NCBI GenBank assembly: GCA_903881215.1
Contig: CAIRSO010000247.1
Coordinates: 1-37,460, forward strand
Direction: 5' to 3'
Length of the DNA: 37,460 nucleotides
Source: an uncultured Bacteroidia bacterium
Lineage (GTDB): Bacteria > Bacteroidota > Bacteroidia > Bacteroidales > Prolixibacteraceae
In this document: positions 16,048 to 37,336 of the stretch, piece by piece
How the letters are laid out: each line of letters opens with the position of its first letter
Numbering within the stretch: position 1 is the first letter of the stretch
The notes under the pieces: model-generated
Told to the model about the DNA's origin: nothing
The model's input: only the letters and a program-made list of their open reading frames with translations
Database searches by the model: none
Made by a program: the position numbers and the translations under genes

Positions 16048-16053
16048 CAAAAA

Positions 16054-16095: not shown

Positions 16096-16132
16096 TCTTT
16101 GTATTCAAATTTAGAGAACAAACCATAACATT

Positions 16133-18039: not shown

Positions 18040-18087
18040 GTCCTGTCACGTTAAAAAACAAAAAGAAGACCAAACACAAATAACGAT

Positions 18088-19983: not shown

Positions 19984-22532
19984 CAAATGACCTAAAATTC
20001 ATACTATCAATCTCCTGGCTATTCTTTCAACTATTTTCCCAGCAGGCATTTGCACAACATACAAAACCCATCTCCTTCCCCGAACGCGGATTTGTTAGTT
20101 CAAAACCTGCCACCCAGTGGGAACATGCACTTGTAAGTGGCAATGGTAAATATGGGGCTCTGGTTTTCGGGCAACCCCTCGATGAAACCATTGTCCTTAA
20201 CCATGCCAGGTTGTTTATGCCGGTGCATGAACCACTTACACCGGTAAATACGGGGGCTCACCTTACTGAAATCCGCCAGATGATTGCCAATGGGCAGTAC
20301 AAGCGAGCTACAGAATATGTGGTGGAGATATCCAAAACGGAAGGATATGGTGAAAAACGGTGGACTGACCCTTATATACCGGCTTTTAATATCCGGGCAA
20401 TCATGAAGCCTCTTGGAGAAGTGAAGGATTATTCCCGTTCGGTGGATTTCTCAACGGGTGTTGCATCTGTCAACTGGAGTGATACAAGGGGCACTTTTCA
20501 TCGACGGCTTTTTGTTTCAAGAGCCGACGATGCTATTGTCCTATCGATCACAGGAAATAAGAAAGGAATTGTGGACTGTACCCTGAAACTTGCCCGGCAA
20601 CCGGCCAAGGGAGCAGGTGGCTGGAATCCGGAGAAGATGTTGAAGGATGGAATAAAGGAATATAAAACTGGTGCAGAATCGGAATGGTTAACCTATCGCA
20701 GCAGTTTCAAAAAACAATGGAAGGGGAGTTTACAGGGATACGAAGGAGTTTCGCGAATTTTGGTTCGCGGCGGAAAGACCGTCACTGAGGGTGATTCAAT
20801 TTCCGTATCCGGTGCCGATGAAGTACTGGTATTTACTAAAATTGAGCTACTTAACGACTACAATAATTCTCAAATCGGGAATCTCAAAAAATCTCTTTCG
20901 CGAATTAACTCTGATTACAAAACTTTAATGGAGCGGCATGCGAAAATTCACAGCGCCATATTCAACCGTTCCCGTCTCGATTTGGGTGGTGGTTCTGACC
21001 GCAATCTGACTTCAGAAGAATTGATCGCAAAATCAAGAATCGGAAACCTGAATCCGGCACTGTTGGAAAAGGAATACGATGCTGCACGGTACAATATACT
21101 TTCGAGCAGTGGCGAACTATTTCCGAATTTGCAGGGAATCTGGAGTGGAACTTACGGCCCTTACTGGTCGGGTGATTTTACGTTGAATGGCAATGTTCAA
21201 AGTGCCATATCTGCCAACTTATCAGCCAATATGGCCGAGTGTTTGCTGCCATTTTTCAGCTACATGGAAGACCATTTGGAAGAATTCAGGGAAAATGCAA
21301 AGATGCTCTACAATTGCCGGGGCATCAATGTACCTTCCCGTGCCAGCAATCATTGCCTGAAAAACTGTTTCGAGGCCGAAAGACCTATGACTTTCTGGAC
21401 TGCTGGTGCCGGATGGGTGTCCCAATTCTTTTTTGACTATTACCTTTATACCGGCGACAAGGAGTTTCTCAGTTCACGTGCCCTGCCATTTATGAAGGAG
21501 GCAGCCCTATTTTACGAAGACTTCCTGATCGAAGGCCCTGACGGAAAATTGCTTTTTAGTCCCAGTTATTCTCCTGAAAACCAGCCTGCCAATAGTAATT
21601 CATCCGCTGCAATCAATAGTGCCATGGACATTGGCGTAGCCCGTGAATTGCTGAATAATTGCATTGCTGCCAGTCAAATACTTGGAAATGTTGCAGATGA
21701 TGTGATCCGCTGGAAATCAATGCTGAAAAAGATGCCGGAATACCTCATCAACGACCAGGGGGCAGTAAAAGAGTGGTCAACTCCATTGCTTAAAGACAAC
21801 GATGCCCACCGGCATGCTTCCCATTTATATGCCTTGTTCAATGGCCTTCCTGCTGAAATTGCAGGTAACCCACAATTGTTAAAGGCTTTCGGCATAACAT
21901 TGGAAAACCGCATGGAAATCCGTCGCAGGGAGTTCATGTCGCCGACTTTAAGAAAACTCACTGCATTGGAAAAGGCAGCCATCCCAAATTATACTCCTTC
22001 CGGTGACAATGGAGAGATCATTGAAGGACGACCACCGGGAGAAATGGCCTTCGGAATTGTCCAACAGGGATTTGCTGCAGCAAGCCTGCACAAAGCTGAC
22101 GTTTGTGGCCAGATTCTCGACTGGCTGGCCAACTGTTATTGGTATCCAAATTTTATATCGACACACAACCCCAAGGCTATCTTCAACACCGATATTTCCG
22201 GCGGACTTCCCGCACTGATTTTAAGAATGCTGGTCGACTCCCAACCGGGATGGATCGAGTTTTTACCTGCATGGCCCAATTCCATGCCTGCAGGCAAAAT
22301 CGAGGGAGCAGCTCTCAGGGGACAGATTATCCTTAAAAAGCTTTCCTGGAATGGGAAAAAGATAGAGGCAGTTTTATTCTCAGGGATTCAGCAGAATGTG
22401 CAGCTTCGAACAACCGGAAGGATAGATACAATTTCCGGCAACAGAAAAGTAAAAATCAACCTTGAAAACGGAAAATATTTTCTTATATTGCCTGAAAAAC
22501 AAGAGGTTTCGATAAAAATAGAATTAAAATAA
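19980..22532 (+). CDS. GH95-family alpha-L-fucosidase-like glycoside hydrolase
   Basis: This 850-residue secreted protein has a signal peptide ending QQAFA. The GH95 N-terminal beta domain (about 35-290) opens WEHALVSGNGKYGALVFG and DETIVLNHARLF. The central (alpha/alpha)6 barrel holds Asn403 and Asn405 (LNGNVQ), Glu533 in SPSYSPEN and Asp738 (NTDISGG). These correspond to the Asn421/Asn423, Glu566 and Asp766 catalytic set of B. bifidum AfcA as I remember it. A C-terminal beta domain follows WIEFLPAWPNSMPAG. GH95 members hydrolyse alpha-1,2-L-fucose or alpha-L-galactose by inversion, so the PUL substrate probably carries such branches. Several motifs deviate from well-known members, so specificity is open. 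It overlaps the previous gene by four bases. Confidence 0.85.
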   Translation: MTNDLKFILSISWLFFQLFSQQAFAQHTKPISFPERGFVSSKPATQWEHALVSGNGKYGALVFGQPLDETIVLNHARLFMPVHEPLTPVNTGAHLTEIRQMIANGQYKRATEYVVEISKTEGYGEKRWTDPYIPAFNIRAIMKPLGEVKDYSRSVDFSTGVASVNWSDTRGTFHRRLFVSRADDAIVLSITGNKKGIVDCTLKLARQPAKGAGGWNPEKMLKDGIKEYKTGAESEWLTYRSSFKKQWKGSLQGYEGVSRILVRGGKTVTEGDSISVSGADEVLVFTKIELLNDYNNSQIGNLKKSLSRINSDYKTLMERHAKIHSAIFNRSRLDLGGGSDRNLTSEELIAKSRIGNLNPALLEKEYDAARYNILSSSGELFPNLQGIWSGTYGPYWSGDFTLNGNVQSAISANLSANMAECLLPFFSYMEDHLEEFRENAKMLYNCRGINVPSRASNHCLKNCFEAERPMTFWTAGAGWVSQFFFDYYLYTGDKEFLSSRALPFMKEAALFYEDFLIEGPDGKLLFSPSYSPENQPANSNSSAAINSAMDIGVARELLNNCIAASQILGNVADDVIRWKSMLKKMPEYLINDQGAVKEWSTPLLKDNDAHRHASHLYALFNGLPAEIAGNPQLLKAFGITLENRMEIRRREFMSPTLRKLTALEKAAIPNYTPSGDNGEIIEGRPPGEMAFGIVQQGFAAASLHKADVCGQILDWLANCYWYPNFISTHNPKAIFNTDISGGLPALILRMLVDSQPGWIEFLPAWPNSMPAGKIEGAALRGQIILKKLSWNGKKIEAVLFSGIQQNVQLRTTGRIDTISGNRKVKINLENGKYFLILPEKQEVSIKIELK

Positions 22533-22551
22533 TCCTTTCAGAAAATTAGAT

Positions 22552-23550
22552 ATGGTGAGGAAAAGTTTACTATCCGTTTCTCTGTTAATAGTTGCCCTTT
22601 TAACCGTTAATGGACAAAATATAACCAAAATAGCTCATCAGAAAATGATGTATGCTGATTCTACCCGGCGAGGCAAACCGTTTTCTAAAAATCCATTTGT
22701 GATCCATCTTGGAGACAGGTACCTGATGTATTCTTCTATTTTGCCGGTGAAAGGAAGTGATGCACGGGAAATAGAAATCACAGAAAGCAAAGACCTGATT
22801 AACTGGAAGAATGTTGGTTATTTGAATGCAAAAGAGGATTATGAAAAGAACGGAATAAGTGCTCCTTGTGTATTGGTAATCAAAGGCAAAGTTCATATTT
22901 TTTACCAAACTTACGGAAATGGAAAAAATGATGCCATTTGCCATGCAGTTTCCGATGATGGTATCACCAATTTCAAACGTAACCCTACCAATCCGATCTT
23001 TCGTCCTAACGGGACCTGGAACTGCGGACGAGCCATCGATGCAGAAGTGTTTCTCTACCAAGGGAAATATTTCATGTATTTCGCCACGCGCGATCCCGGA
23101 TTTAAAATTCAACTACAGGGAGTTGCTGTTGCCCCGGAAAATACCAATTTCAATCGTGAGGAGTGGACGCATCTCTCGAAAGACGGTCCGATTCTCAAAC
23201 CCGAATTGCCCTGGGAAGGAGAATGTATTGAAGCAGCATCCATTATTGAGCGAAACGGAAAGTTATATATGTTCTACGCAGGAGCTTACGACAACGCACC
23301 TCAGCAAATTGGTGTTGCAACAAGTAAAGATGGCGTTAAATGGGAACGACTTTTTAAGGAGCCTTTTTTGTGCAATGGCAAACCCGGCGAATGGAATTTC
23401 AGCGAATCTGGTCACCCGAATATTTTCGATGATGGGGAAAAAACCTATCTTTTTTATCAGGGGAACAAAGACAATGGCCATACCTGGTGGATTTCGAATG
23501 TAGAAGTTTTCTGGAATGAAATGGGACCATATCTAAAAATACAGGCATGA
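22552..23550 (+). CDS. Five-bladed beta-propeller glycosidase-like protein (GH43/GH117/GH130-like)
   Basis: This 332-residue secreted protein has a signal peptide to about residue 22 (LLTVNG|QN). Repeated blade motifs are visible: GDRYLMYSS, GKVHIFYQTYG, QGKYFMYFATRD, NGKLYMFYAG and EKTYLFYQGN. They are typical of five-bladed propeller glycosidases of clan GH-F and related families. Asp163 (RAIDAEVF) and Glu227 (CIEAASI) sit where a GH43 transition-state Asp and catalytic acid Glu would. The first blade reads KNPFVIHLGDRY with Asn47 where GH43 enzymes have the base Asp, so the mechanism is uncertain. It starts 19 bases after GH95 and overlaps the next ATG by four bases. It may trim side-chain sugars; the exact family is unassigned. 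Confidence 0.65.
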   Translation: MVRKSLLSVSLLIVALLTVNGQNITKIAHQKMMYADSTRRGKPFSKNPFVIHLGDRYLMYSSILPVKGSDAREIEITESKDLINWKNVGYLNAKEDYEKNGISAPCVLVIKGKVHIFYQTYGNGKNDAICHAVSDDGITNFKRNPTNPIFRPNGTWNCGRAIDAEVFLYQGKYFMYFATRDPGFKIQLQGVAVAPENTNFNREEWTHLSKDGPILKPELPWEGECIEAASIIERNGKLYMFYAGAYDNAPQQIGVATSKDGVKWERLFKEPFLCNGKPGEWNFSESGHPNIFDDGEKTYLFYQGNKDNGHTWWISNVEVFWNEMGPYLKIQA

Positions 23551-26279
23551 AATTAGTAACAATCAAACTATCGCTGGTCTTCCTCTGTTTTTTTTGCGCA
23601 TCACCTGCGCAAAGTCAAACTCATCCCTTATCCGGTCACCCGAGATTGTTTTTTCTTCAGGCCGACGAGGCAATTCTGAAAGCCAAAATTACAGCTACCC
23701 CTCTGTTGACCAAATCGCACAATGTTATCATTACTGAATGCAATCTCCTGCTTACGTTGCCTGTTCAGCAAAGGGTTTTAATTGGGAGACGATTGCTCAG
23801 TGTTTCAAGGGAAGCCATCAGGAGAATATCCTACCTGAGTTACGCCTATCGGATGACTGGTGAAGTTCGTTATGCCACCAGGGCAGAAACTGAGATGTTG
23901 GCCATGGCGGCCTTTTCTGACTGGAACCCTTCCCACTTTCTCGATGTAGGAGAAATGACTTTGGCAATGGCCATTGGCTACGATTGGCTGTACAGCTATT
24001 TAGGCTCAACTTCACGTACCACCATTGCAACAGCCATCAAGGTTAAAGGAATCGAAGAAACCACCGGCACAAAAGCGAACCAGTCGTGGTTAACCAGCAA
24101 CAACAACTGGAACCAGGTCTGCAATGCAGGAATATCTGCCGGTGCAGCAGCTGTTTTTGATGAAAATCCAACTTATTACCAACCACTGATTGACAGGGCA
24201 GTAAATTCCATTAAAATTCCGATGGGGGTTTATGTCAACAATGGTGCCTACCCCGAAGGCATGGGATACTGGGAATATGGCACCTCTTTCAATATCCTGT
24301 TTATCGATATGCTGCAACGCATGTGGGGTACCGACCGCGACCTCACAGCCATCGATGGTTTTCTGAAAACAGGCAATTTTGTGACACACATGCAAGGTAC
24401 CGGGACCAAGCAAATGGGTGGAGGAACCCTGAAAGCCATCAATCCGCTTCCGTTTAATTTTGCAGATTGCGGGAATGGAATTGGTGTCCAGATCGGCATG
24501 TTCTGGCTTGCCTCGCGTGCTGCCGACAAGAGCATACTCTACAACGAGTTACAGAAGCTTGATTTTACCTTGACAACGAATGAGGCCAGTCTGGGTGACA
24601 ACCGGCTTTTACCCTTCCTGCTCATCTGGAGCATGAACCTGAACATGAACAACCTGCCGGCACCTGTCGAAACAACTTACCTGGCGCAGGGACAAAGTGC
24701 TGTAGGTGCCCTTCGGACGGGCTGGGGAGCCAACGATATCTACCTGGCAGTGAAGGGAGGCACCCCATCCGGTAACCATGCACACATGGACATTGGTTCT
24801 TTTGTGATGGATGCCATGGATGTAAGATGGGCGATGGATTTCGGGATGAGCGACTACACCGTTCTTGAAGCCAACGGCGTAGATTTGTGGAACATGAGTC
24901 AGAGTTCGGAAAGATGGGACGTATTCCGCTACAACAACATGGCTCACAATACATTGACCATCAACGGAAACAAGCAATTGGTAACCGCAAATGTGCCGGT
25001 CGAAAATTTGGTGAACACCCCAAGCTTGAAATCGGTTGAAATGAACCTCACACCGGCTTACAAGAACGATTTAACCAATTGCCGACGAACGGCATCTATC
25101 GTTTCCAACCGGTATGTCGAGATCAAGGATGTCGTGCAGGCAAGTTCCAAACCACTTACGATTCGTTGGAATCTGCTCACACAGGCCATTCCGCAGAAGG
25201 TAAGTGACAAGGTTATCCGGCTTTCGCAGTCCAACAAAAACCTCTACCTTGTCTTCGAAGGCACCGATGCCGTAACTGCCAAAGCCTGGTCAACCAAGCC
25301 GACTACAAGCTATGAAGAATCCAACTCCGATACTTATTTTACAGGTTTTGAATATGCCGTGACTGCAGGTACGACCCAGACTGTCACCGTCAAATTAGTA
25401 CCTGAAGGTGATGCGGTATTGAGTGGGATCAACCTCACAACCTCCGGAGTTGTATTGAACGAGAATTTTGAGTCGTTCAATCTGAATTCTCTCAACAATG
25501 AATTTGTCAGCTGGAAAACAAACCCAGCCAGCAACGGAGCGTTAAAGGCTATGTTGGGGGAGGTAGTTGTCAATCCTTTTAAGAACGGAATCAATACCAG
25601 CAACAAAGTACTCCGGATCAGAAGGCAGGATGACATCGAGTATGTCACTTCCGCGAATGCCGGAAACTTTACTTATCGCGGCGTTCAGGCTTACGGCTAC
25701 GACTTGAAAGTAAACACAAATTCAGTGATCGAATTCAAATATTACAAAGATGCACCAGGCAAGATTGGCGTGCGTATTTACGATGGCCTCGGGAACGTGC
25801 TGATTGTTGATTTTACTGATCCCTATGAAATTACAGCAGGATACACTACTGCACAATGGCGTACCGCGCAGTTTGCTGTGGGTAGCCTCGATCTGTCAAA
25901 ATTCAGTTTCACACCCTCAGGGTACTTGCTCATTTCGCCTGAAAGAAATGGAACTGAATTTTACCAGGAAAAAGCGTTAACCATGTATGTGGACGAGGTA
26001 AAAATGCTGCCACTTTCGATCACGGCAGTTGAAACACTTCAGAAAAAACCCGGCTTCTCCGCTTATTTTGACCCATTCAATGAACGTATCTGTGTTTTAA
26101 ACCTTCCGGCGAACAGCCGCGAAATAAGATTGTATGATTTACTTGGAAGGACATTGCAAACTGTTCTGGTTTCGGGTGATTACGCGTTGCTGGATGCAGG
26201 AACCACACCAAACAAAGTCTTCATCGTTCAGGTGTTATCTTCCGATGGAAAAAGTCATTCAATGAAGGTGAAAAGGTAA
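23547..26279 (+). CDS. Heparinase II (PL21)-like lyase with C-terminal T9SS sorting domain
   Basis: This 910-residue protein has a signal peptide ending near SPAQSQ. The toroid domain (to about 300) has FSDWNPSHFLDVGEM, Asn187 (NNW) and Tyr241 (GYWEYG). The beta-sandwich carries NHAHMD with His411 and His413, Asp431 (MDFG) and His467 (MAHNTL). The HxH-to-Asp distance matches the heparinase II zinc site. From about 640 an extra beta-sandwich-like module (ENFESFN to YVDEVKML) is present, followed by a type-A T9SS domain with IRLYDLLGRTLQ and a C-terminal SMKVKR. It is the only gene here with such a domain, so it is probably released or anchored at the surface while its relatives stay periplasmic. 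It overlaps the GH43-like gene by four bases. Confidence 0.85.
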   Translation: MKLVTIKLSLVFLCFFCASPAQSQTHPLSGHPRLFFLQADEAILKAKITATPLLTKSHNVIITECNLLLTLPVQQRVLIGRRLLSVSREAIRRISYLSYAYRMTGEVRYATRAETEMLAMAAFSDWNPSHFLDVGEMTLAMAIGYDWLYSYLGSTSRTTIATAIKVKGIEETTGTKANQSWLTSNNNWNQVCNAGISAGAAAVFDENPTYYQPLIDRAVNSIKIPMGVYVNNGAYPEGMGYWEYGTSFNILFIDMLQRMWGTDRDLTAIDGFLKTGNFVTHMQGTGTKQMGGGTLKAINPLPFNFADCGNGIGVQIGMFWLASRAADKSILYNELQKLDFTLTTNEASLGDNRLLPFLLIWSMNLNMNNLPAPVETTYLAQGQSAVGALRTGWGANDIYLAVKGGTPSGNHAHMDIGSFVMDAMDVRWAMDFGMSDYTVLEANGVDLWNMSQSSERWDVFRYNNMAHNTLTINGNKQLVTANVPVENLVNTPSLKSVEMNLTPAYKNDLTNCRRTASIVSNRYVEIKDVVQASSKPLTIRWNLLTQAIPQKVSDKVIRLSQSNKNLYLVFEGTDAVTAKAWSTKPTTSYEESNSDTYFTGFEYAVTAGTTQTVTVKLVPEGDAVLSGINLTTSGVVLNENFESFNLNSLNNEFVSWKTNPASNGALKAMLGEVVVNPFKNGINTSNKVLRIRRQDDIEYVTSANAGNFTYRGVQAYGYDLKVNTNSVIEFKYYKDAPGKIGVRIYDGLGNVLIVDFTDPYEITAGYTTAQWRTAQFAVGSLDLSKFSFTPSGYLLISPERNGTEFYQEKALTMYVDEVKMLPLSITAVETLQKKPGFSAYFDPFNERICVLNLPANSREIRLYDLLGRTLQTVLVSGDYALLDAGTTPNKVFIVQVLSSDGKSHSMKVKR

Positions 26280-26398
26280 TACGGATGAAAAACAAACTAA
26301 TAATACCTGAAAAATGAGACAATTTTGTTGATTTTATTTGTCTGGAGATTAAAAAACTTCCTTCAAATAACAATTTATAAATAATCATTGCATTACTG

Positions 26399-26412
26399 AT
26401 TAATCGATTAAT
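26399..26412. promoter_or_regulatory. Perfect 14-bp palindrome just upstream of a lyase start
   Basis: ATTAATCGATTAAT is a perfect palindrome ending 10 bases before the ATG at 26423, within a 143-base AT-rich gap. The position would suit a repressor site or a leader hairpin. AT-rich chance symmetry is possible and no clear promoter is seen nearby. Confidence 0.2.
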
Positions 26413-26422
26413 TTTCCAAACT

Positions 26423-28393
26423 ATGAGAACAATTCATCCTGTTTTGAAACCTCTGCTTCTTATCTGCCTGGCACTTTTTCTTTTTTCAGCAGTCAATCCG
26501 GCAAAGGCCGTATTAACTAACAAAGAGAGAAACATCCTGGCCAACAAAGCCAAAGCCATTGACCTGGCTAAGTCCATGATTGCGGACGACTCCTGGAACA
26601 AATACCCAAAGTACAAAGACAGAACCTTTTGGGACAAACTACCGGATAACATCAGGCAAGAATATATCTCCAAGGCAGAAGGATACTTAACCTACAACTG
26701 GCCTGTTGTAAGAGCCACTGATTACCTGGAAATTATTCGCTCAGGAGATCGCCGGCAAAGCGTCTACTCCGCTTGCAGCAGTGCCTTAACAACCCTTGTC
26801 ATGGGAGAGCTGGTGGAAGGCAAAGGCCGATTTACGGATCAAATCATCAATGCGGTCTGGTATTTCAGCGAACAGACCTGGTGGGGATGGTCGGCACACC
26901 TCACTGCTCAAAAAGCCGGTACGGGACTGCCCGATGTCAACGACCCGGTTGTTGACCTTGGAGTCGGCGAAATCACCAGCAATCTTTCGTGGACGCTTTA
27001 CTTGTTCAAAGCAGAATTTGACAAAGTTCATCCATTGATTGCAAAACGTGTAAAACAGGAGATCACCAATAAATCGTTAAAACCCTATTTTGAGCGTGAC
27101 GACTTTGGCTACATGGGATTCAAAGGCGGACGTCCCAACAACTGGAATCCATGGATCAACTACAACATGCTGAACAGTTACCTTTTGCTCGAAAGTGACC
27201 CTGCCAAAAAAGTAGCCGAAGTTCAGAAAATCATCAATTCTTTGGACAAATTTCTGAACGGCTATTCCGATGACGGAGGTTGCGATGAGGGTCCATCCTA
27301 TTGGGGTGCTGCGGGAGCCCTGTTGTACGAGAGCCTGGAGGTGCTCAAAATGGTGACCAACGATAAATTCGATGTTTATGACGATCCGCTGATTCAAAAC
27401 ATTGGCAAATACTTCTACCAGGCAAACATCCATGCCCCCTATTTCATCAATTTTGCTGATGCCGACGCCACCACAGGAGGCAGTCCATCAACAGTTTACA
27501 GATATGGCAAGGCCATAAAAGATCCAATGATGCATGAGTTTGGTGCCTATCTGGCAAAACTGGCAGGATGGGGTGAGCACAGTCTGGGCGGTAAAATCGG
27601 CGATCAGATCAAAAATCTTGGCCTGCTGGATGAACTCAAGAACGCCAAATCATCCGAAGCATTGGTGGCCGATTTCTGGCTTCCTGATACCGAAGTTGCA
27701 GGGGCACGTGACAAGGAAGGCAGTTTCAAGGGGTTTTTCTTTGGTGCCAAAGGCGGCTTTAACAACGAGAGCCATAACCACAACGATGTCGGATCCTGCG
27801 TGATGTACTTTGACGGTAAACCATGCCTGATCGATTTAGGTCGCGAAGAGTACAACGCCAAAACTTTCAGCTCCAAACGGTATGAAATATGGACCATGCA
27901 GTCAAAATATCATAACCTTCCGGTCATCAACGGCATTGACGAGAAAGACGGTGAAAGATTCAAAGCCAAAGACTCCAAATTTTCGGCCAATGCCAAATCG
28001 GCAACCTTCTCAACCGATATCGCCGGAGCCTATACGCCTGAAGCGCAGGTTAAAAGCTGGGTTCGCAGCTATACTTTGATCAGAGGAAAAAGCTTCAAAA
28101 TAAGCGACAATTTCCAACTTGCCGGACTAAGCAATGCTCCAACAACTTCCAACCTGATCACCTATTGCAAGGTGTCTGAGGTAAAACCAGGATTGCTGAA
28201 ATTTGAAGGAGATGGTTTTGTTCTAAACATGGCTTATAACGCCAAAGTCGTAAAACCTACTATCGAATTCAAAGAGATCAAGGATAAATCGTTGGTGAGA
28301 TACTGGCCCAAAGGAGTAACCAGAGTCGTTCTCGAATACCTCAAACCCGCCGTTAAAGGAGGCCAGGAGGTCGTTTTCACACCTGTTAAATAA
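26423..28393 (+). CDS. Heparinase II/III-family toroid lyase (CDEGPSYWG group, second copy)
   Basis: This 656-residue secreted protein has a signal peptide ending NPAKA near residue 29. It is a relative of the gene at 18088: both share NNWNPWIN, CDEGPSYWG, ESHNHNDVG and the spacing between them. Candidate residues are Asn240, Tyr293, His451, His453, Asp455, Asp471 (LIDLG) and His497 (KYHNLPVING), so the active-site set is complete. An insertion near 390-420 (GGKIGDQIKNLGLLDELKNA) is absent from the other copy. It is preceded by a 143-base gap and followed after 10 bases by a strong hairpin at 28404. Divergence between the two copies suggests different cleavage sites on the same polymer (inference). 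Confidence 0.8.
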   Translation: MRTIHPVLKPLLLICLALFLFSAVNPAKAVLTNKERNILANKAKAIDLAKSMIADDSWNKYPKYKDRTFWDKLPDNIRQEYISKAEGYLTYNWPVVRATDYLEIIRSGDRRQSVYSACSSALTTLVMGELVEGKGRFTDQIINAVWYFSEQTWWGWSAHLTAQKAGTGLPDVNDPVVDLGVGEITSNLSWTLYLFKAEFDKVHPLIAKRVKQEITNKSLKPYFERDDFGYMGFKGGRPNNWNPWINYNMLNSYLLLESDPAKKVAEVQKIINSLDKFLNGYSDDGGCDEGPSYWGAAGALLYESLEVLKMVTNDKFDVYDDPLIQNIGKYFYQANIHAPYFINFADADATTGGSPSTVYRYGKAIKDPMMHEFGAYLAKLAGWGEHSLGGKIGDQIKNLGLLDELKNAKSSEALVADFWLPDTEVAGARDKEGSFKGFFFGAKGGFNNESHNHNDVGSCVMYFDGKPCLIDLGREEYNAKTFSSKRYEIWTMQSKYHNLPVINGIDEKDGERFKAKDSKFSANAKSATFSTDIAGAYTPEAQVKSWVRSYTLIRGKSFKISDNFQLAGLSNAPTTSNLITYCKVSEVKPGLLKFEGDGFVLNMAYNAKVVKPTIEFKEIKDKSLVRYWPKGVTRVVLEYLKPAVKGGQEVVFTPVK

Positions 28394-28403
28394 ATCTTTC
28401 ACA

Positions 28404-28438
28404 TATACCTGACAGGTTTTTAAAACCTGTCAGGTATA
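28404..28438. repeat. Perfect 17-bp inverted repeat hairpin between lyase genes
   Basis: The arms TATACCTGACAGGTTTT (28404-28420) and AAAACCTGTCAGGTATA (28422-28438) are exact complements around a single T. The hairpin starts 11 bases after one stop and ends 18 bases before the next ATG. It could act as a bidirectional terminator or attenuator, or it could be one copy of a dispersed palindromic repeat. The motif looks like one I have seen scattered in Bacteroidota intergenic DNA. Confidence 0.85.
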
Positions 28439-28456
28439 AAAACAACCAATATACAG

Positions 28457-30331
28457 ATGAACTACAGAAAAATATTGCTGGTCTTATTCTTCGGCCTTTT
28501 CCTATCCGAAATGGCATCCGCTCAAAAGGAGCTGATCCCCAAATCTTTCAAGGCTGGGGCGCACCCCAGGATCCTACTTTTGGGAGGAGAGGAAGCGCTC
28601 ATTAAACAGTCAGTTGCCACCAACGCCACCTGGAAGAAAATGCACGAAGCCATTCTTCTTTCCTGCGATAAATTAATGGATCAGCCTCCCGTTGAAAGGA
28701 TTCAGATCGGAAGGCGTTTACTCGATAAGTCGCGCGAAGCCCTCAGGCGCATTTTTCAACTTTCCTATGCCTGGCGCATGACTGGCGAAGAAAAATATTT
28801 CAACCGCTGCGAAAAAGAGATGCTGGCCATCGCCAAATTCAGCGACTGGAACCCTTCCCATTTTCTCGATGTGGCAGAAATGACTATGGCAGTGGCCATC
28901 GGCTACGACTGGCTTTACCAAAAACTATCTGATGAATCAAAAAAAATGATCCGTGAGTCCATTGTCAGCAAAGGGTTGTATCCGTCGCTAGACCCAAAAT
29001 TCAACAGCTGGCTGAGATCATCGAACAACTGGAATCAGGTTTGCAATGCAGGAGTCACATACGGTGCACTGGCAGTATGGGAGGATCATCCACAATTGGC
29101 CAAAAGCCTCACAGAACGTGCCATTCAATCAATTCCCATTTCCATGGAAGAATACAAACCCGATGGTGCCTATCCCGAAGGGTATGGCTATTGGGGATAT
29201 GGAACCTCATTTAACGTGATGTTTCTGTCGGCCGTGGATAAAGCTTTCGGAAGCGATTTCGGATTGAACAGCGCCCCCGGCTTCCTGCAAACATCCTGGT
29301 TCATGGAAAACATGAAAGGTGTGACCAGTTTGAGTTTCAACTGGGGTGACAGCGGTCAGGGCAGTGGATTAAGTCCGGCGATGTTTTGGCTGGCTCAAAA
29401 GAACAACGACCTTTCCCAGCTATGGGTAGAAAAATCATACCTTAACCAGGATGATTTCACCAGATTTACCGGCGACCGTCTTTTACCTGCCGTAATGATC
29501 TGGGGGAAAGAAACACCATTGGACAAGGTAACTGAACCCAAAGCACTGTTTTACAAGGGACAAGGCGCCAATCCTGTCGCCATGATGCGTACCTCATGGT
29601 CAGACCCAAACGCAATATTCCTTGGGTTTAAAGCAGGTTCAGCCTCTGTCAACCACGGGCACATGGATATTGGCTCCTTCGTAATGGAAGCCGACGGCTC
29701 GCGCTGGGCCACCGATTTTGGCATGCAGGATTACGAATCACTTGAGTCGAAAGGGATTGCCTTGTTCGGCCGGACCCAGGATGCCCAGCGATGGACGGTA
29801 TTCAGACTCAACAATATGGCTCACAACACGCTGACCATTAATAACCAGTTACAACTGGTTAAGGGATATGCCAAAATTGATAAATCTTCAGATAAACCAG
29901 AATTTATGTATGCCGTTTCTGATTTATCCACGGTTTACGAAACTCAATTGGCCTCCGCCAATCGTGGCGTTGCCATCGTTGACAAGAAATATGTTGTGGT
30001 AAGGGACGAAATTGTGGCAGATAACAAACCAGCAACTGTACGCTGGACCATGCTCACCTCTGCAATAGTCAAACTTAAAGGCAATCGTATCATTTTGAGC
30101 AAAGAAGGTCATAGCCTTGATGTGATGGTTAATGCCCCTTCCAGCATAAAAATGAAAACCTGGTCGACCGAGCCTACCAACAATTACGACGCACCTAATA
30201 AAGGCAAGACTTTGGTCGGATTCGAATTTCAGTTGAAACCCAATCAGAAGGAGACCATCCAGGTCTTGCTGGTACCAGGTTCCGTCAAAAACAAAAAATT
30301 AAAGTTCAGCAAGGATTTGAACAGTTGGTAA
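28457..30331 (+). CDS. Heparinase II (PL21)-like toroid lyase
   Basis: This 624-residue secreted protein has a signal peptide ending MASA|QK near residue 22. It shares FSDWNPSHFLDVAEMTMA, NNWNQVCNAG and DGAYPEGYGYWGYGTSFN with the gene at 23547, but stops after the heparinase beta-sandwich and lacks the T9SS tail. Candidate residues are Asn191, Tyr245, His400 and His402 (NHGHMD), Asp420 (TDFG) and His456 (MAHNTL). The HxH-to-Asp gap equals that of heparinase II. It is probably a periplasmic counterpart of the exported enzyme. The substrate is undetermined: family relatives act on heparin/heparan-type or other uronic-acid chains. The start is supported by the signal peptide directly after the ATG. 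Confidence 0.83.
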   Translation: MNYRKILLVLFFGLFLSEMASAQKELIPKSFKAGAHPRILLLGGEEALIKQSVATNATWKKMHEAILLSCDKLMDQPPVERIQIGRRLLDKSREALRRIFQLSYAWRMTGEEKYFNRCEKEMLAIAKFSDWNPSHFLDVAEMTMAVAIGYDWLYQKLSDESKKMIRESIVSKGLYPSLDPKFNSWLRSSNNWNQVCNAGVTYGALAVWEDHPQLAKSLTERAIQSIPISMEEYKPDGAYPEGYGYWGYGTSFNVMFLSAVDKAFGSDFGLNSAPGFLQTSWFMENMKGVTSLSFNWGDSGQGSGLSPAMFWLAQKNNDLSQLWVEKSYLNQDDFTRFTGDRLLPAVMIWGKETPLDKVTEPKALFYKGQGANPVAMMRTSWSDPNAIFLGFKAGSASVNHGHMDIGSFVMEADGSRWATDFGMQDYESLESKGIALFGRTQDAQRWTVFRLNNMAHNTLTINNQLQLVKGYAKIDKSSDKPEFMYAVSDLSTVYETQLASANRGVAIVDKKYVVVRDEIVADNKPATVRWTMLTSAIVKLKGNRIILSKEGHSLDVMVNAPSSIKMKTWSTEPTNNYDAPNKGKTLVGFEFQLKPNQKETIQVLLVPGSVKNKKLKFSKDLNSW

Positions 30332-30350
30332 TGTTGTGTCCTTTTCATTG

Positions 30351-30402
30351 CCGTCGGCTTCAGCCGACGGATAAAAAAGCGTGATAAATGACGGCTTTAG
30401 CC
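30351..30402. repeat. Paired GC-rich short hairpins after a lyase gene
   Basis: CCGTCGGC (30351-30358) and GCCGACGG (30363-30370) pair perfectly around TTCA. A related smaller element, GGCTTTAGCC (30393-30402), follows within a TGACGGCTTTAGCC context. This looks like a small REP-type element, or a weak terminator, since A-rich rather than T-rich sequence follows on the + strand. It starts 20 bases after the preceding stop. Confidence 0.55.
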
Positions 30403-30476
30403 AAAATCTTTTGAACAGGCACACAGAAAAAAATTCTTAACCATCCAATGAATCAAGATAGTTATTATTCATCCAA

Positions 30477-31883
30477 ATGAAAAATCCAATTCTTCTATTT
30501 GTTGCTGTATTAATATCTTTTACAGCTTGCGCCCAAAAAGACCTCAACGATAAAAGCAGGATTGTCGACGAGACCATAAACACCGAATCGGTTGGGCAGG
30601 TAATCTCCATCGATAAAGTTTGGGCAGGTCAACCCGTTGGATTTTCGCTGTTAACCCACCAGAACAAGCAGTACATTGCTTATTACAATGCCAACAGAAA
30701 CATGGTGGTTGGACAACGGAATCTCAGTGATTCGAAATTTTCATTAACAATCCTTCCTGCCACTTCTCGCGAAACGGCTGGCGGAACCAGCACAATTCTG
30801 GGATGGGACAGTCACAACAGTGTCACTTTAGGGATTGATCCAGACGGATACATTCATTTGGCCGGTAACATGCATGTCCATCCGATCACCTATTTCCGAA
30901 GCACCCAACCCAACGATATTTCAACTCTGCAACAGGTAATGACACTGGTTGGCACAAACGAGAAACGATGTACATACCCCAATTTCATGAACACCCGAGA
31001 AGGCGAACTCATTTTTCACTACCGCGATGGTTCCAGTGGAAGTGGAAACGAGATATACAATCTGTTTAACTCAAAAACCCTGAAATGGGAACGATTGCTT
31101 GATACTCCGCTTACTGACGGACAGGATTTGATGAATGCCTACCAAACCCAGCCTACCCTGTTGGCTGATAACTGGTATCACGTCTACTGGGTATGGCGCG
31201 ATACACCCGACTGTTCAACCAATCACGATCTTTCATACATCAAAAGTCCGGACCTTAAAAACTGGTTCAACGCTTTTGGCGAACCGGTAAAACTACCGGT
31301 TACCCTTGAGAATAAATCGGTGATAGTTGACCCGATTCCTGTCAAGGGAGGTATCATCAACCTGGCAGCCAGCCTTTGCTTTGACAACGACGGGAAGCCG
31401 CTTTTTGCCTATCACAAATACGATGCTGCTGGGAACCTGCAATTTTATACTGCCCGGTTATCAGGCAAGAAATGGGAGATCAAACAATTGACAGACTGGA
31501 ATTATCGCTGGGATTTTTCGGGAGGAGGAAGCATTATTTTTGAGGTTCGGGTAGGTACTTTCAAAAACCGTGGTGATGGATTTTATGAATTGGGATATGG
31601 CCATATCAAATATGGAAATGGGACCTTTCTGCTAAACGAGTCCATGGAAATATGCGGAATTGTTCGCAAGCCTGCTTCACCTGCAGAACTTTCAAAGCTT
31701 GAGGGGAAATTCGCCGGACTGCAGGTTCGCACTTCCGGTGATTTGGGTTCCTCCGGAGAAACTGACATCCGTTATATGCTCAAGTGGGAAACATTGCCTG
31801 CCAACCGGGATCAGGCAAGACCTGAACCCTGGCCTGAAGCCAGCCAATTGTATTTGTTTAAGTTAAAAAAGAATAATCCATAA
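30477..31883 (+). CDS. BNR_4-type beta-propeller lipoprotein, candidate PL24/PL25-like lyase
   Basis: This 468-residue protein has a lipoprotein-type signal with a possible lipobox FTAC (Cys18), suggesting membrane or surface anchoring. It reads as a BNR_4 seven-bladed propeller: GWDSHNSVTLGIDPDGYIHLAG, SYIKSPDLKNWF, ASLCFDNDGKPLFAYHKYD and LTDWNYRWDFSGGGS. His113 and His133 (GNMHVH) are exactly 20 residues apart, like the catalytic His123/His143 pair I recall for PL25 ulvan lyase. Tyr182-Arg183 (FHYRDGSSG) resembles the downstream active-site strand. Many BNR_4 proteins are uncharacterised, so lyase activity is inference. The next lyase starts 3 bases after its stop, so the pair is cotranscribed. 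Confidence 0.7.
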   Translation: MKNPILLFVAVLISFTACAQKDLNDKSRIVDETINTESVGQVISIDKVWAGQPVGFSLLTHQNKQYIAYYNANRNMVVGQRNLSDSKFSLTILPATSRETAGGTSTILGWDSHNSVTLGIDPDGYIHLAGNMHVHPITYFRSTQPNDISTLQQVMTLVGTNEKRCTYPNFMNTREGELIFHYRDGSSGSGNEIYNLFNSKTLKWERLLDTPLTDGQDLMNAYQTQPTLLADNWYHVYWVWRDTPDCSTNHDLSYIKSPDLKNWFNAFGEPVKLPVTLENKSVIVDPIPVKGGIINLAASLCFDNDGKPLFAYHKYDAAGNLQFYTARLSGKKWEIKQLTDWNYRWDFSGGGSIIFEVRVGTFKNRGDGFYELGYGHIKYGNGTFLLNESMEICGIVRKPASPAELSKLEGKFAGLQVRTSGDLGSSGETDIRYMLKWETLPANRDQARPEPWPEASQLYLFKLKKNNP

Positions 31884-31886
31884 TTG

Positions 31887-33920
31887 ATGAAAACAAAAAG
31901 CCTCCTAATTGTCCTGTTTTGCCTGGCTACCCAATTCGTTATGGCGCAAACCAATTGGCAAAATATCCAAACGGTTGATGAAGTTTGTAATGCTTATCCT
32001 CAGCAGATCAAATCCATCTTTCCGAACCTCAACCTCAACTTTCCGGGACTGGAAGCTGTAAAAAAGGCTTATGAAAGCAACAACCTCCCTTTGGCCTGCC
32101 AAAATTTGCTCGATTACTACAGCAAATCGGCTCAGATTGTCAAGGATCTGCCTTCCGTGTCGGAACAATCTAAATCTGAGGCTGACTCAACTCTTCTGGA
32201 TATTTTCAATTTTCAAAATGTAAAGGGAAAGGTACCTCGTTTGCCGGATGGTCATCTGAAATGGGATTGCATGGGTCCAGAGAATGACATCGAATGGGCC
32301 TGGGCACTGAACAGACACTACCCCACCAACGGACTGGTGAAAACTTATTTTGATACGGGAAACCCAAAATATGTCAAGTACATCGATCAGTTTACCAAAG
32401 ACTGGATCATGAACAGCTGGCCATATCCTGCAGTGAAAAGTAGCACAGCCATGTGGCGTGGACTTGAGGTTAGCTTCCGGGTAAAGGTCTGGTCCAAAAT
32501 TTTCTTCGAGCTCTGGAACACTAAACTGATCACTCCGGCGACAAAACTCCTGATCTTAAGCAGTATTCCCCAGCACGCTCACTATGCCAGAAACTTTCAC
32601 GCACAAGGCAACTGGCTTACCATGGAGATTTCGGGATTGGCAACCGCAGCTTCTTCATGGCCGGAGTATCGTGAATCTGCAGCCTGGATGGAGTACTCTA
32701 TGAAAACAATGGTGGCCAGTATGAAAGAACAGATCTATCCCGATGGTGTCCAGACGGAGCTGACTTCAAGTTATCATCTTGTGGCTCTTTCCAACTTCAA
32801 CCTCTTTGCCGAAATCTGCAAAAAGAACAAAGTTTCACTACCGGAATACTATACCAAAACTTTGGAGGACATGTGGAACTATCTGGCATACATCATGCGT
32901 CCGGATGGATTTGGACTTCTTAACAATGATGCCGACCTCCTTAACAACCGCGAAAACATTTTGCGGGAAGCGTTGAACTATGAACATCCCGACTGGACCT
33001 ATATTGCCACAAACGGGAAAAGCGGAACCAAACCCTCATCTGGACCTTCCGTGATTTTCCCTTATGCAGGCCATCTGATATCCAGAAACGATTATGATAC
33101 AGAAGCTCAATGGTCATTTTTTGACATCGGCCCATGGGGAAGCGGTCACCAGCACAACGACAAACTTCATCTGTCCATAGCTGCCTACGGTCGTGATTTT
33201 CTCGTCGACGGAGGCAGATTTGCCTACCGGGGAGAAGTCGCCAACAAATTCAGGAAATATGCTACCGGAAGTTTCAGCCACAATGTTATTCTAGTGGATG
33301 GAAAAGGACAGGCTGATGGTCCACGGCAGACAGATAAACCATTGTCAGAAGACCTCTATGCCATAAACAAAGACTACGATTATGGATCAGGAAAATTCGA
33401 TAAATTCAACGGAGTAGAAGGAACTTTCTCGCACACACGTTCCATGATCTATGTGCGAGGTGAATTTTGGATAGTAGTCGACCGTCTTCAAACCGATCGT
33501 CCACGCAGCATCGAAACATTATGGCATTGGAACCCTGATTGCCAGGTTAAAGCCGGCAAAGATGGTAGAGTTGGCACACAGAATGAACATGGCAATCTTC
33601 AAATTATTCCGGTAGATGCTCCGGATTTTGAAGTTGCCCTGGTAAAGGGACAGGAAACTCCCGGCATTCAGGGATGGTACAGCAAAGAATACAATAAATT
33701 TGAACCAAACACAACAACTATTTTTTCGCAGAAACTGAAGTCTGATGATACCTTTGTCTGGATCTTATGGCCCTCGGAAGGGAAGTCTTCCATCATTCAG
33801 GCTAAAATTCTGAACAAGGATATCAATGCCGTCAAAGTTAAAGTAACGGCACCGGGAAAAGGATCCTGGACCATAACGGTTCCATACCTGAACAGCAAAG
33901 ATGTTGTCCTAACACATTAG
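31887..33920 (+). CDS. Heparinase III-like polysaccharide lyase (PL12-like, second copy)
   Basis: This 677-residue secreted protein starts at the ATG at 31887; the TTG directly before it is unlikely. The signal peptide is cleaved near VMA|QT. The N-terminal toroid has NDIEWAWALNRH, TAMWRGLEVSFRVKVW, Asn242 (GNW) and Tyr296 (SSYH). The C-terminal beta-sandwich has SGHQHNDKLHLSI with His421 and His423, Asp441 (LVDGG) and His465 (FSHNVILVDG). Asn/Tyr/His positions match the PL12 enzymes closely. Unlike the PL12-like gene at 11239, which has HCQPDN, this one has HQHND, so the two belong to different subgroups. It follows the BNR_4 gene by 3 bases. The substrate is unknown. Confidence 0.83.
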   Translation: MKTKSLLIVLFCLATQFVMAQTNWQNIQTVDEVCNAYPQQIKSIFPNLNLNFPGLEAVKKAYESNNLPLACQNLLDYYSKSAQIVKDLPSVSEQSKSEADSTLLDIFNFQNVKGKVPRLPDGHLKWDCMGPENDIEWAWALNRHYPTNGLVKTYFDTGNPKYVKYIDQFTKDWIMNSWPYPAVKSSTAMWRGLEVSFRVKVWSKIFFELWNTKLITPATKLLILSSIPQHAHYARNFHAQGNWLTMEISGLATAASSWPEYRESAAWMEYSMKTMVASMKEQIYPDGVQTELTSSYHLVALSNFNLFAEICKKNKVSLPEYYTKTLEDMWNYLAYIMRPDGFGLLNNDADLLNNRENILREALNYEHPDWTYIATNGKSGTKPSSGPSVIFPYAGHLISRNDYDTEAQWSFFDIGPWGSGHQHNDKLHLSIAAYGRDFLVDGGRFAYRGEVANKFRKYATGSFSHNVILVDGKGQADGPRQTDKPLSEDLYAINKDYDYGSGKFDKFNGVEGTFSHTRSMIYVRGEFWIVVDRLQTDRPRSIETLWHWNPDCQVKAGKDGRVGTQNEHGNLQIIPVDAPDFEVALVKGQETPGIQGWYSKEYNKFEPNTTTIFSQKLKSDDTFVWILWPSEGKSSIIQAKILNKDINAVKVKVTAPGKGSWTITVPYLNSKDVVLTH

Positions 33921-34013
33921 AATTTCTGCCGCCTTATGCCACTAAGCTAAGCATTGATGAGTGACAAATTTTTCAAACAGTCACTTTATGTTAATTTACA
34001 AAAAGAAAAACGC

Positions 34014-34172
34014 ATGAAGAATTCCTTAAAAATCGCTGCAATCGGTTTTATCCTTGGCCTGGCTGTCATGTTTTTGTTGGACATGGTTTTCCATTTCAAC
34101 AACTCCATCGAAACACAATTAAAGCGTGAGATGAATAAGACACAAAACAAGATTGAAAATATTTTCAAATGA
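34014..34172 (+). CDS. 52-aa single-pass membrane protein of unknown function
   Basis: The ATG at 34014 begins MKNSLKIAAIGFILGLAVMF, a hydrophobic segment that continues to about residue 27. A charged amphipathic tail follows (ETQLKREMNKTQNKIENIFK) that could form a short coiled coil. Earlier in-frame starts (TTG 33954, ATG 33957) would add a polar leader with no signal logic. The stop overlaps the ATG of the PL8-like gene as ATGA, so translation is probably coupled. No family is recognised. It may help localise or export the large enzyme, or it may be a simple leader gene; both are inference. Confidence 0.55.
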   Translation: MKNSLKIAAIGFILGLAVMFLLDMVFHFNNSIETQLKREMNKTQNKIENIFK

Positions 34173-37100
34173 AAATTCCAGCCAGACTTATTCTGCTAAC
34201 TTCTCTGATATTTGTGCTTTCTCTGGTAGGTAAAGCACAAAAAACGGCTGACTATCCGGCTGATTTAATGCAATTGCACACCAATGTCTGGTCTGATATA
34301 TTAAAAAATGCTCCTGAAGAGGACAATGTCAGGAAAATGACCGAAAAACTTTCCGACCAGGGTGCGTGGGCGGACGTTGATTATGCCAGCAAACAAAGAG
34401 GAGACTGGCACCCAGCCTCTCATTTAAGCAGGCTGCAGAGTTTGGCCAAAGCCTGGCAAAAGGAAGGATCATCTTATTACCATGAACCTGTACTTCTTAA
34501 AAAAATACATTCTGCGCTGAATTACTGGCTAAATAATGACTTTCAATGTCCGAACTGGTGGTACCCTGAGATTGGTGTCCCCATGTCTCTCGCCCCGACG
34601 CTCATCCTGATGGAAAAAGAACTTTCCAAAGAACAGATGGCACTTGGCATAAAAATTCTGGACCGTGCGAAAATCCGTATGACAGGACAAAACAAGGTTT
34701 GGTTATCCGGAAATGTCCTGCTGAAATCAATGCTTTTACGCGATACCGAAACCATCCGAAAAGCCTCCGCTTCTATTCAGGAAGAGCTGAAAGTCAGCCT
34801 GGAGGAGGGCATTCAGCCGGATGGCTCCTTCCACCAGCATGGTCCTCAGATCCAGTTTGGCAACTACGGACTGGCATATGTTGGAGACATGATCAAATGG
34901 ATCAGGATATTACGCAATACTCCATTCAATTTCGATGAAAAAAAGATGGCCATTCTGCGCAATTATCTGATTGACGGTCAGCAGTGGATCGTCTGGAAAA
35001 ACCAGATGGACATCAGTGCCTGTGGGCGTCAGCTTTTTATCGATGCGCAAATAGGCAAAGCAAGGAGCCTGGCCGGGTTCCTGCGACAGATGGAAACGCT
35101 TGACCCTACTTTTACGGATGTATATAAAAAGGCCAATCAATTCGAAAGTCTCATAGGAAACAAACATTTCTACAACTCAGATTTTCAGATTCAACGCTCT
35201 CCGGAGTACTATTTCTCTGTCAAGATGTGCTCTGAAAGAGTCATTGGAGCTGAATCCTGCAATTCAGAAAACATCCGTGGATACTACCTCGGCGATGGTG
35301 CCACCTATCTCTATCAGACGGGCAAGGAGTATGAAAATATCTTCCCCTACTGGGACTGGAAAAAAATTCCGGGAACTACAACTTTACAGGATGACAAGGA
35401 GTTGCCAGTCTTAACCGCAAGCGGATACCGGATCAAAAGTGATTTTGTCGGAGGAGTATCCGATGGAAAAGAGGGCATCGCTGTCATGGATTACAACAGG
35501 AACGGAATTACCGCTAAAAAGTCGTGGTTCAACTTCAGCAACCGTATTATTTGCCTGGGGTCAGGCATCAATTCATTGGAAGCGAATGACGTGACAACGA
35601 CGGTCAACCAGGCTTTTCTGAAGGGTGAAGTAACTCTTCAGGAGCTTTCCGGCAAGATAATTGCTCCGGAATCCTCCATCAAAGTCAACCCCAAATGGAT
35701 CTTGCATGACAATACCGGATATTTTTTTCCTGACGGAGGAAATCTGAAACTGGAGACAAGAACGATAACTGGATCCTGGAACCAGGTCGCGCTGATGTAC
35801 AAAAATGAGCCAATTATGACTCAGATATTTAAGCTGTGGTTCGACCATGGTACAAAACCTGAAAATCAGAAATATGCCTATTTTTTGGTTCCCGGTGCGA
35901 CAAAAGCCATTCTGGGAAAGATGGAAAAGAATTCCGGTTTTAATATCCTGAAAAATGACACTGAACTACAGGCAGTAGTTGCTTCAGATGGCAATTTGGG
36001 AGGTGCAATCTTCTACAAGCCTGGTAAAATAAACCTTTCTGGCGGAGTTGAAGTAGATAAACCCTGTGTTATCATGGTAAAAAGAGAAAAAAAGTCCCTA
36101 CATATTTCCATATCCGATCCAACCCAAAAACTAATTCAGATCAGGCTCACACTGGATGGCAAATATGAAACAGCTAACCCGGCAGCTATATTGAAAACAG
36201 AACTGGGAAAATCGATTTTGGATATCACACTTCCCAGAGGCGGAGAGGCAGGAAAGACTGTTTCGTTAAAATTAATACCCTTTTCTCAATCAAAAACAGT
36301 CGTAAGCATCAAGAATGATGACTTTTACATCAACAATGAAATAACGCTTAAGGGTAAAAAAATTGACACTATTTCAATCGAAGGATTGCTTCCTAATTCC
36401 AGAATGGTGCAGGGAATCTTCGATGATCTGAATCCTGAAACCCGAAACTTGTGGAAATACCCTGATACCGGCAAGTGGGATCCCAATAGAAACACAAATG
36501 AATTTGTTTCTGCTATGCTCGAATGGAGAGCACACGGCCTGCTTGCCTTTACCCTCAACTTGCAGGGGGGTAGTCCAACCGGTTATGGAAACAAAGGATG
36601 GATCAATCCGGGTTTTTTCAAAGATGGTAAAATCATGCCTGACTATTTTAACCGTTTGGAAAGAATCCTGAACAAGGCTGACCAACTAGGCATGGTTGTG
36701 ATTCTGGGAATATTCTATTTTGGTCAGGATGAAAATCTTGAAAATGAAGCTGCAATCAAAAACGCTGTGAGCAATACCATTGACTGGCTTTTCGCGAAAG
36801 GTTACAGGAATGTACTGATCGAAATTAACAACGAATGCAATGTAAATGGTTATGATCACGATATTCTGAAACCGGATAGGGTAAGTGAATTGATTGTATT
36901 GGCGAAGAACAAAAAGCATCCCAAGGCCGGTTATCGATTTTTAGTATCAACAAGTTACGGAGGTAAGCATATTCCTCATCCAAATGTGGTCAAAACAGCC
37001 GATTTCCTCCTATTGCATGGGAATGGTGCGGACAAGCCGGAAATCGTTACGCAAATGGTAGCCGACACAAAAAAAGTGGAAGGATATCACAAGATGCCTA

Positions 37101-37336
37101 TCCTTTTCAACGAAGATGACCATTACAATTTCAATGAACCGGTCAACAACATGCTCAATGCTTTTAGGGCGGGCGCTTCCTGGGGATTGTTTGATTTCAG
37201 AAAAAGAGGTGAAACGCTTAAAGAGGGAGACCAGACTTTTAAGGAAGGGTACCAAAGTGTACCTGTTGACTGGGGCATCAATTCGCAGCGAAAAAAGGAT
37301 TTTTTCGAGCTTTTGGCCAGAATTTCTGGTCTTTGA
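34169..37336 (+). CDS. PL8-like polysaccharide lyase fused to a putative clan GH-A hydrolase domain
   Basis: This 1055-residue secreted protein has a signal peptide ending VGKA|QK near residue 24. The first 700 residues read as PL8: toroid motif CPNWWYPEIGVP (Asn129), QPDGSFHQHGPQ with His224, GNYG with Tyr233 and GR with Arg287, then beta-sandwich modules. From memory, the His, Tyr and Arg fall almost exactly on His225, Tyr234 and Arg288 of chondroitinase AC. The second active-site Arg is replaced (Ile291; motif GRQLFID instead of GRxISR). From about 710 a TIM-barrel-like domain follows, with EINNEC (Asn888-Glu889) and LFNEDDHYN (Glu982), the spacing expected of a GH-A acid/base and nucleophile. 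PL8 enzymes normally end near 650-1000 residues without this domain. Substrate and GH family are unassigned. Confidence 0.8.
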   Translation: MKIPARLILLTSLIFVLSLVGKAQKTADYPADLMQLHTNVWSDILKNAPEEDNVRKMTEKLSDQGAWADVDYASKQRGDWHPASHLSRLQSLAKAWQKEGSSYYHEPVLLKKIHSALNYWLNNDFQCPNWWYPEIGVPMSLAPTLILMEKELSKEQMALGIKILDRAKIRMTGQNKVWLSGNVLLKSMLLRDTETIRKASASIQEELKVSLEEGIQPDGSFHQHGPQIQFGNYGLAYVGDMIKWIRILRNTPFNFDEKKMAILRNYLIDGQQWIVWKNQMDISACGRQLFIDAQIGKARSLAGFLRQMETLDPTFTDVYKKANQFESLIGNKHFYNSDFQIQRSPEYYFSVKMCSERVIGAESCNSENIRGYYLGDGATYLYQTGKEYENIFPYWDWKKIPGTTTLQDDKELPVLTASGYRIKSDFVGGVSDGKEGIAVMDYNRNGITAKKSWFNFSNRIICLGSGINSLEANDVTTTVNQAFLKGEVTLQELSGKIIAPESSIKVNPKWILHDNTGYFFPDGGNLKLETRTITGSWNQVALMYKNEPIMTQIFKLWFDHGTKPENQKYAYFLVPGATKAILGKMEKNSGFNILKNDTELQAVVASDGNLGGAIFYKPGKINLSGGVEVDKPCVIMVKREKKSLHISISDPTQKLIQIRLTLDGKYETANPAAILKTELGKSILDITLPRGGEAGKTVSLKLIPFSQSKTVVSIKNDDFYINNEITLKGKKIDTISIEGLLPNSRMVQGIFDDLNPETRNLWKYPDTGKWDPNRNTNEFVSAMLEWRAHGLLAFTLNLQGGSPTGYGNKGWINPGFFKDGKIMPDYFNRLERILNKADQLGMVVILGIFYFGQDENLENEAAIKNAVSNTIDWLFAKGYRNVLIEINNECNVNGYDHDILKPDRVSELIVLAKNKKHPKAGYRFLVSTSYGGKHIPHPNVVKTADFLLLHGNGADKPEIVTQMVADTKKVEGYHKMPILFNEDDHYNFNEPVNNMLNAFRAGASWGLFDFRKRGETLKEGDQTFKEGYQSVPVDWGINSQRKKDFFELLARISGL

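Follow-up and report, generated by a model that had tools for sequence, protein, structure and literature searches.

A predicted PL8 lyase fused to a clan GH-A glycosidase-like barrel in a polysaccharide utilisation locus of an uncultured Bacteroidia bacterium

Enzymes uniting complementary catalytic domains in one secreted chain are described, in the portions of the papers drawn upon here, both from Teredinibacter turnerae and from Bacteroidetes loci (PMC2699552, PMC8040265). For chondroitinase AC, a polysaccharide lyase of family PL8, the excerpted account names His225, Arg288, and Arg292 as residues that may bind the substrate and aid catalysis, and places Asn175 and Tyr234 among the docked contacts (PMC8733870). 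Here we describe a gene from an uncultured member of the Bacteroidia, in which a PL8 lyase is joined to a predicted clan GH-A hydrolase. It lies in a stretch of 37,460 nucleotides (contig CAIRSO010000247.1), the whole of which is hereafter termed the window; the features discussed below are collected in Table 1.

Table 1. Features of the window, with the evidence on which each was placed (residue numbers refer to the fused protein; model strands are in the numbering of the GH-A domain).
Feature	Position	Strand	Basis
Polysaccharide utilisation locus, with the fused gene last	119..37336	+	Two SusC/SusD pairs, seven Hepar_II_III_C, GH95, GH43, BNR_4
Whole fused gene	34169..37336	+	1055 codons plus stop
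Probable signal peptide, residues 1 to about 23	34169..34237	+	By eye: hydrophobic stretch, then AQ
PL8 lyase half, residues 1 to about 703	34169..36277	+	Pfam Lyase_8_N, Lyase_8, Lyase_8_C; chondroitinase AC
Asn175, counterpart of Asn175 of chondroitinase AC	34691..34693	+	Alignment; 15/15 clade rows
His224, counterpart of His225 of chondroitinase AC	34838..34840	+	Alignment; 15/15 clade rows
Tyr233, counterpart of Tyr234 of chondroitinase AC	34865..34867	+	Alignment; 15/15 clade rows
Arg287, counterpart of Arg288 of chondroitinase AC	35027..35029	+	Alignment; 15/15 clade rows
Junction, residues 700-707, PL8 end to mature GH-A start	36266..36289	+	Alignment with the separate genes of L019
Clan GH-A barrel half, residues about 704-1055	36278..37333	+	Model pLDDT 90.5; structure matches
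Asn888-Glu889, proposed acid/base, end of strand 4	36830..36835	+	46/46 rows; model strand 183-188
Glu982, proposed nucleophile, end of strand 7	37112..37114	+	46/46 rows; model strand 279-283

The fused gene is a single open reading frame with an ATG start and no internal stops, encoding 1055 amino acids. The original prediction, made from the letters of the sequence, had delimited it identically and had read it as a lyase and a hydrolase in one chain, a reading upheld by the PL8 domains recovered with Pfam and by the GH-A barrel. Its allocation of the N-terminal 700 residues to PL8 stands, with the boundary shifted to 703-704, and the PL8 motifs that it had listed are indeed present, viz., NWW (from residue 129), QHG (from 223), NYG (from 232), and GR (286-287). 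The Pfam search that it had called for splits the two halves: the PL8 half scores above cut-off with Lyase_8_N (residues 51-292, E = 4.4e-40, 138.2 bits vs a cut-off of 24), Lyase_8 (331-577, E = 3.9e-81, 272.8 bits vs 27), and Lyase_8_C (593-657, E = 2e-15, 57.4 bits vs 22), whereas the GH-A half remains below it. In the family search, the 14 best PL8 matches mostly stop at query residue 702-705 (ten of them, with the remaining four at 681, 690, 701, and 720) and the GH-A matches start at 699-708; hence, neither domain appears to be cut. A structure model of the full chain is poor (pLDDT 45) and uninformative on the mutual placement of the two sites.

The nearest solved structure to the PL8 half is chondroitinase AC, aligned over residues 18-655 (phmmer, E = 1.6e-107), which shares with it the three PL8 domains and the site Asn, His, Tyr, and first Arg (PDB 1hm2, 1cb8) but, unlike the window protein, is devoid of a hydrolase domain. 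We compared 15 rows of the PL8 clade, defined by an identity of 45% or more, leaving out L119_3 (the same gene as L099) and five distant paralogues (30-32%). Beyond the site residues of Table 1, Glu362 is kept in 14 of these rows and replaced by Gln in L104. Arg292 of chondroitinase AC falls opposite a four-residue gap in the window PL8, and an Arg four residues after Arg287 occurs in none of the 15 rows, L106 having an Arg five residues after it. Further, the half scores 441.2 bits against the NCBIfam chondroitinase AC equivalog NF043001, below its cut-off of 1000. Given the missing Arg292 counterpart and the sub-cut-off equivalog score, this half belongs to a separate PL8 clade and is unlikely to be a chondroitinase; lacking that Arg, it should not be assumed to have a glycosaminoglycan substrate. 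A divergent PL8 of a second type, 30-32% identical and differing in its site pattern, is encoded at L119:2024-4186, where it sits two genes from a close PL8, and also in L127 and L128.

Clan GH-A enzymes are retaining glycosidases with an Asn-Glu after strand 4 and a Glu after strand 7 of the barrel. The AlphaFold2 model of the C-terminal half, built on a 46-row alignment (the window, 43 loci, and two second copies, picked from the best 80 loci), is a predicted eightfold β/α barrel (pLDDT 90.5, pTM 0.92), and GH-A enzymes head both the Foldseek and the VIA-align lists. Enzymes of GH140 and GH5 provide the top solved matches in VIA-align (Z 22-23), the GH140 structure 8t9w at 23.0 being practically level with the GH5 enzymes at 22.5 and below. 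The fold, the acid/base Asn-Glu, and the candidate nucleophile in Table 1 are those that the original prediction had proposed for a TIM-barrel domain, and its suggested Foldseek search has thus come out as it expected, both Glu residues being kept throughout the alignment at the ends of strands 4 and 7. Invariant in all 46 rows are Glu885, Asn888, Glu889, His950, Asn952, Glu982, Asp983, and Trp1005; a second NE motif lies at 981-982, with Asn981 in 45 of 46 rows. To judge from alignment and model, these conserved residues are the marks of a predicted retaining glycosidase of clan GH-A.

The family to which this module belongs is less readily named. Searches of Pfam, NCBIfam, and PDB gave no matches above cut-off for the GH-A half. 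GH5 (PF00150, Cellulase) reaches 17.5 bits at 819-894 of the full chain and 19.2 bits against the half alone, below its cut-off of 23.5, and the GH140 apiosidase-like PF13204 reaches 13.1 bits, below 26.5. Among solved chains, the best sequence matches have E = 0.12 with the 46-row profile and 0.23 with the single sequence, none of them convincing. Membership in GH5 or GH140 was accordingly not accepted on the sub-cut-off Pfam scores, though both families lead the structure list. GH5 mannanases and the GH140 apiosidase (PDB 3wfl, 1qnp, 8t9w) share with the GH-A half the barrel fold (Z 22-23) and the positions of the Asn-Glu and the Glu behind strands 4 and 7, respectively, at 7-15% identity in the structure-match rows. 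A PL8 accessory domain, which the original prediction had named as a reading of the C-terminal half that would speak against it, is ruled out for residues 704-1055 by the mostly free-standing relatives and by the barrel model; PL8 homology in the GH-A frame was found in none of the 94 other loci with a GH-A relative. The module represents an unstudied GH-A family that may already carry a CAZy number, and we know of no activity in it.

A scan of one public genome collection recovered 437 relatives of the GH-A half, with record titles naming Bacteroidetes, Ignavibacteriae, Planctomycetota, Verrucomicrobia, Acidobacteria, Chloroflexi, and other phyla; the best 80 relatives were kept. This number, and the E value of the PL8 half against chondroitinase AC, put both halves well outside what chance would give. 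A relative on a Marinovum algicola plasmid is annotated as a hypothetical protein. In 67 of the best 80 loci the chain bears no long addition, and in 13 it is longer, i.e., with more than 120 residues before or more than 80 after the module. The fused domains identified with Pfam include BD-FAE esterase (L018:2570-4534, L020:9800-11890), GDSL esterase (L029:8336-11026), BNR_2 (L042:2582-7120), and ThuA (L092:223-2142); several additions among the fused relatives scanned gave no Pfam match. As other relatives carry such varied domains, PL8 appears to be one further partner of a fusion-prone GH-A module. We offer only tentatively, as an idea with the odds somewhat against it, that the module defines an undescribed glycoside hydrolase family repeatedly joined to catalytic domains, which together with PL8 would cut two bonds of one acidic polysaccharide. 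Separately, an N-terminal domain of ~260 residues, weakly amidohydrolase-like (best E = 0.019), precedes the GH-A module in L004:1498-3309, L064:9176-11029, and L083:9185-11029. L045 and L057 each have two nearby GH-A copies, the second of which is ~37-38% identical to the window's GH-A half, constitutes a separate subfamily, and retains both catalytic Glu residues.

The likely precursor arrangement is seen in L019 (CAIUUO010000050.1), which we take to be G300, a genome of the window's genus. Here, a PL8 gene 70% identical and a GH-A gene 75% identical to the respective window halves are adjacent and separate: the PL8 gene ends in a stop codon, the next ATG follows after 41 bases, and an apparent signal peptide (by eye) then precedes the mature GH-A protein. 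In the alignment with these genes, the window is devoid of the stop codon, the spacer, and the second signal peptide, so that the last PL8 residues run directly into the first mature GH-A residues without a linker. Between the window and L019, dN amounts to 0.20 in the PL8 half and 0.18 in the GH-A half, whose dS is saturated (3.6), that of PL8 being not computable; these low dN values beside the saturated GH-A dS indicate that the protein sequences are under constraint. We consider it fairly probable that an in-frame deletion joined adjacent lyase and GH-A genes into a gene for a single secreted protein that carries both active sites.

Under this proposal, the deletion would have merged neighbouring PL8 and secreted GH-A genes of one acidic-polysaccharide locus, such that both activities would be made in equal numbers and exported together. 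The PL8 half would cut a bond beside a uronic acid by β-elimination, with Asn175 and Arg287 holding the substrate and His224 and Tyr233 moving the proton. The GH-A half would act on a different bond, hydrolysing it in the two steps of a retaining enzyme, with Glu889 as the acid/base and Glu982 as the nucleophile. That both sites act on the same chain is a plausible hypothesis.

The fusion itself is rare in the genomes sampled. In the genus it was found in one of 8 genomes and in the family in one of 100 sampled genomes, in both cases the genome of the window itself; two overlapping samples of 395 genomes each, drawn from the class and the phylum, list no further instance among matches at E <= 1e-100, with at most two candidates per genome scored. 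The 100-, 8-, 395-, and 395-genome sets overlap with one another, and a 295-genome search used the GH-A half alone as query. An apparent span of residues 628-1054 in G722, interrupted by three stops, was rejected, as the locus has no PL8 match better than E = 4.3. A PL8 at least 45% identical occurs in 14 other genomes of the family; seven of these have a GH-A relative (E <= 1e-20), and the PL8 lies next to one in G300 only. Because PL8 and GH-A are thus not regular partners, the distribution points to a local, recent union and counsels caution on strong cooperation between them.

The gene content of the locus, a cluster on one strand that begins at 119 and is closed by the fused gene, gives some indication of the substrate. 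Pfam annotation of the 18 window ORFs recovers two SusC-like and two SusD-like proteins, seven with Hepar_II_III_C, and one each with GH95, GH43, BNR_4, and PL8. Judged by its seven genes for heparinase-fold lyases, its GH95 and GH43 enzymes, and its two SusC/SusD pairs, the locus probably targets an acidic polysaccharide, which the fused protein would probably attack. PL8 relatives occur among the same heparinase-fold lyases in G352 and G385, and also near genes for alginate-lyase-type (PF05426), chondroitinase-B-type, GH28, and α-L-fucosidase proteins; a polysaccharide that is acidic and contains fucose would fit. No sulfatase was found by Pfam among the 18 window ORFs, nor among the 10 ORFs of L116 and L121, and the absence from the window suggests a substrate with little sulfate; however, sulfatases occur near close GH-A relatives in L017, L020, and L021, and an unsulfated substrate was for that reason not accepted.

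Of the 151 ORFs neighbouring the GH-A module in 44 loci, 95 were scanned, belonging to 25 of these loci; some of the ORFs are possibly shadow frames. At L048:5541-17968 (Cyclobacterium), a GH-A gene lies near genes for a DUF5060 protein, an isopropylmalate-type dehydrogenase, a cyclase, an acid-sugar-kinase-type SBD_N/NBD_C kinase, a GFO/IDH/MocA oxidoreductase, and an MFS transporter. The set looks like an acid-sugar pathway, and this neighbourhood gives a faint hint of an acid-sugar product of the GH-A enzyme. A lyase-lyase fusion, with chondroitinase-B-type (residues 40-404) and alginate-lyase-type (506-778) domains in one chain, is encoded at L121:16561-19080 (G385 contig 6), where it neighbours a PL8 of the same clade. 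Within the window locus are also an ORF at 15306-15995, weakly matching an IS200-type transposase (PF01797, 22.1 bits vs 23), and one of 582 residues at 16133-17881 with no meaningful Pfam match.

An assembly or sequencing error might have created the fusion from genes that are separate neighbours in the organism, as they are in L019 of the same genus. The window genome is a single fragmented bin (881 contigs, 85% complete), in which the fused protein has a single match, the gene itself, and no second fused case occurs among the genomes listed. Yet such an error must have deleted ~165 bases in frame, starting exactly where PL8 ends and stopping exactly where the second signal peptide does, and would have left both domains whole, which makes this account rather unlikely. 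We regard as quite improbable that the fusion is real and one half is no longer enzymatic, the GH-A half having become a sugar-binding domain alone or the PL8 half inactive. The missing counterpart of Arg292 of chondroitinase would be in keeping with such a loss, as would a GH-A family with no known activity and no solved relative by sequence; on the other side stand the four PL8 site residues kept in every clade row and both GH-A Glu residues kept in every row of their alignment, and the Arg292 difference is common to the clade, as expected of a change of substrate rather than of decay.

The interpretation of a deletion fusion with two active sites is itself compatible with a narrower version in which both halves are active without cooperating, i.e., they address different polymers or steps and were united as neighbours by a near-neutral chance event. 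The pair is non-adjacent in 13 of 14 further genomes of the family that carry a PL8 of this clade, close GH-A relatives adjoin other partners (sulfatases, GH127, and GH43), and the absence of a linker at the joint points the same way. Usually a locus encodes enzymes for a single substrate, and the two genes share a locus in both the window and L019, which speaks for cooperation; on this evidence the non-cooperating version is a serious but not the favoured possibility.

If both halves of the proposed deletion fusion are active, it would be a natural enzyme pairing elimination with hydrolysis, and the separate genes in the same genus allow a clean comparison of the fused protein with its halves and with its unfused counterparts, to see what the joining contributes. 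The larger gain, and the better lead, is the uncharacterised GH-A family, with its 437 relatives and conserved catalytic residues, for which this locus provides a first hint of substrate.

The original prediction knew of no characterised enzyme with this order of domains, and likewise no characterised PL8/GH-A enzyme was found in the literature searched, which includes few subscription journals, most of them lying outside its coverage. The multicatalytic pairs from Teredinibacter turnerae and Bacteroidetes, as far as the excerpted texts describe them, combine a hydrolase with an esterase or two esterases, as against a lyase and a hydrolase here (PMC2699552, PMC8040265); a figure key in the Teredinibacter turnerae paper includes PL domains, and a lyase-hydrolase combination there is possible (PMC2699552). 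The excerpted account of a glucuronan lyase-chitinase chimera describes a lyase joined to a hydrolase, as in the window; however, that chimera is man-made from Trichoderma enzymes (PMC7601620). The fusion looks real and, with one occurrence so far, represents a new pairing of known enzyme kinds rather than a new kind of enzyme.
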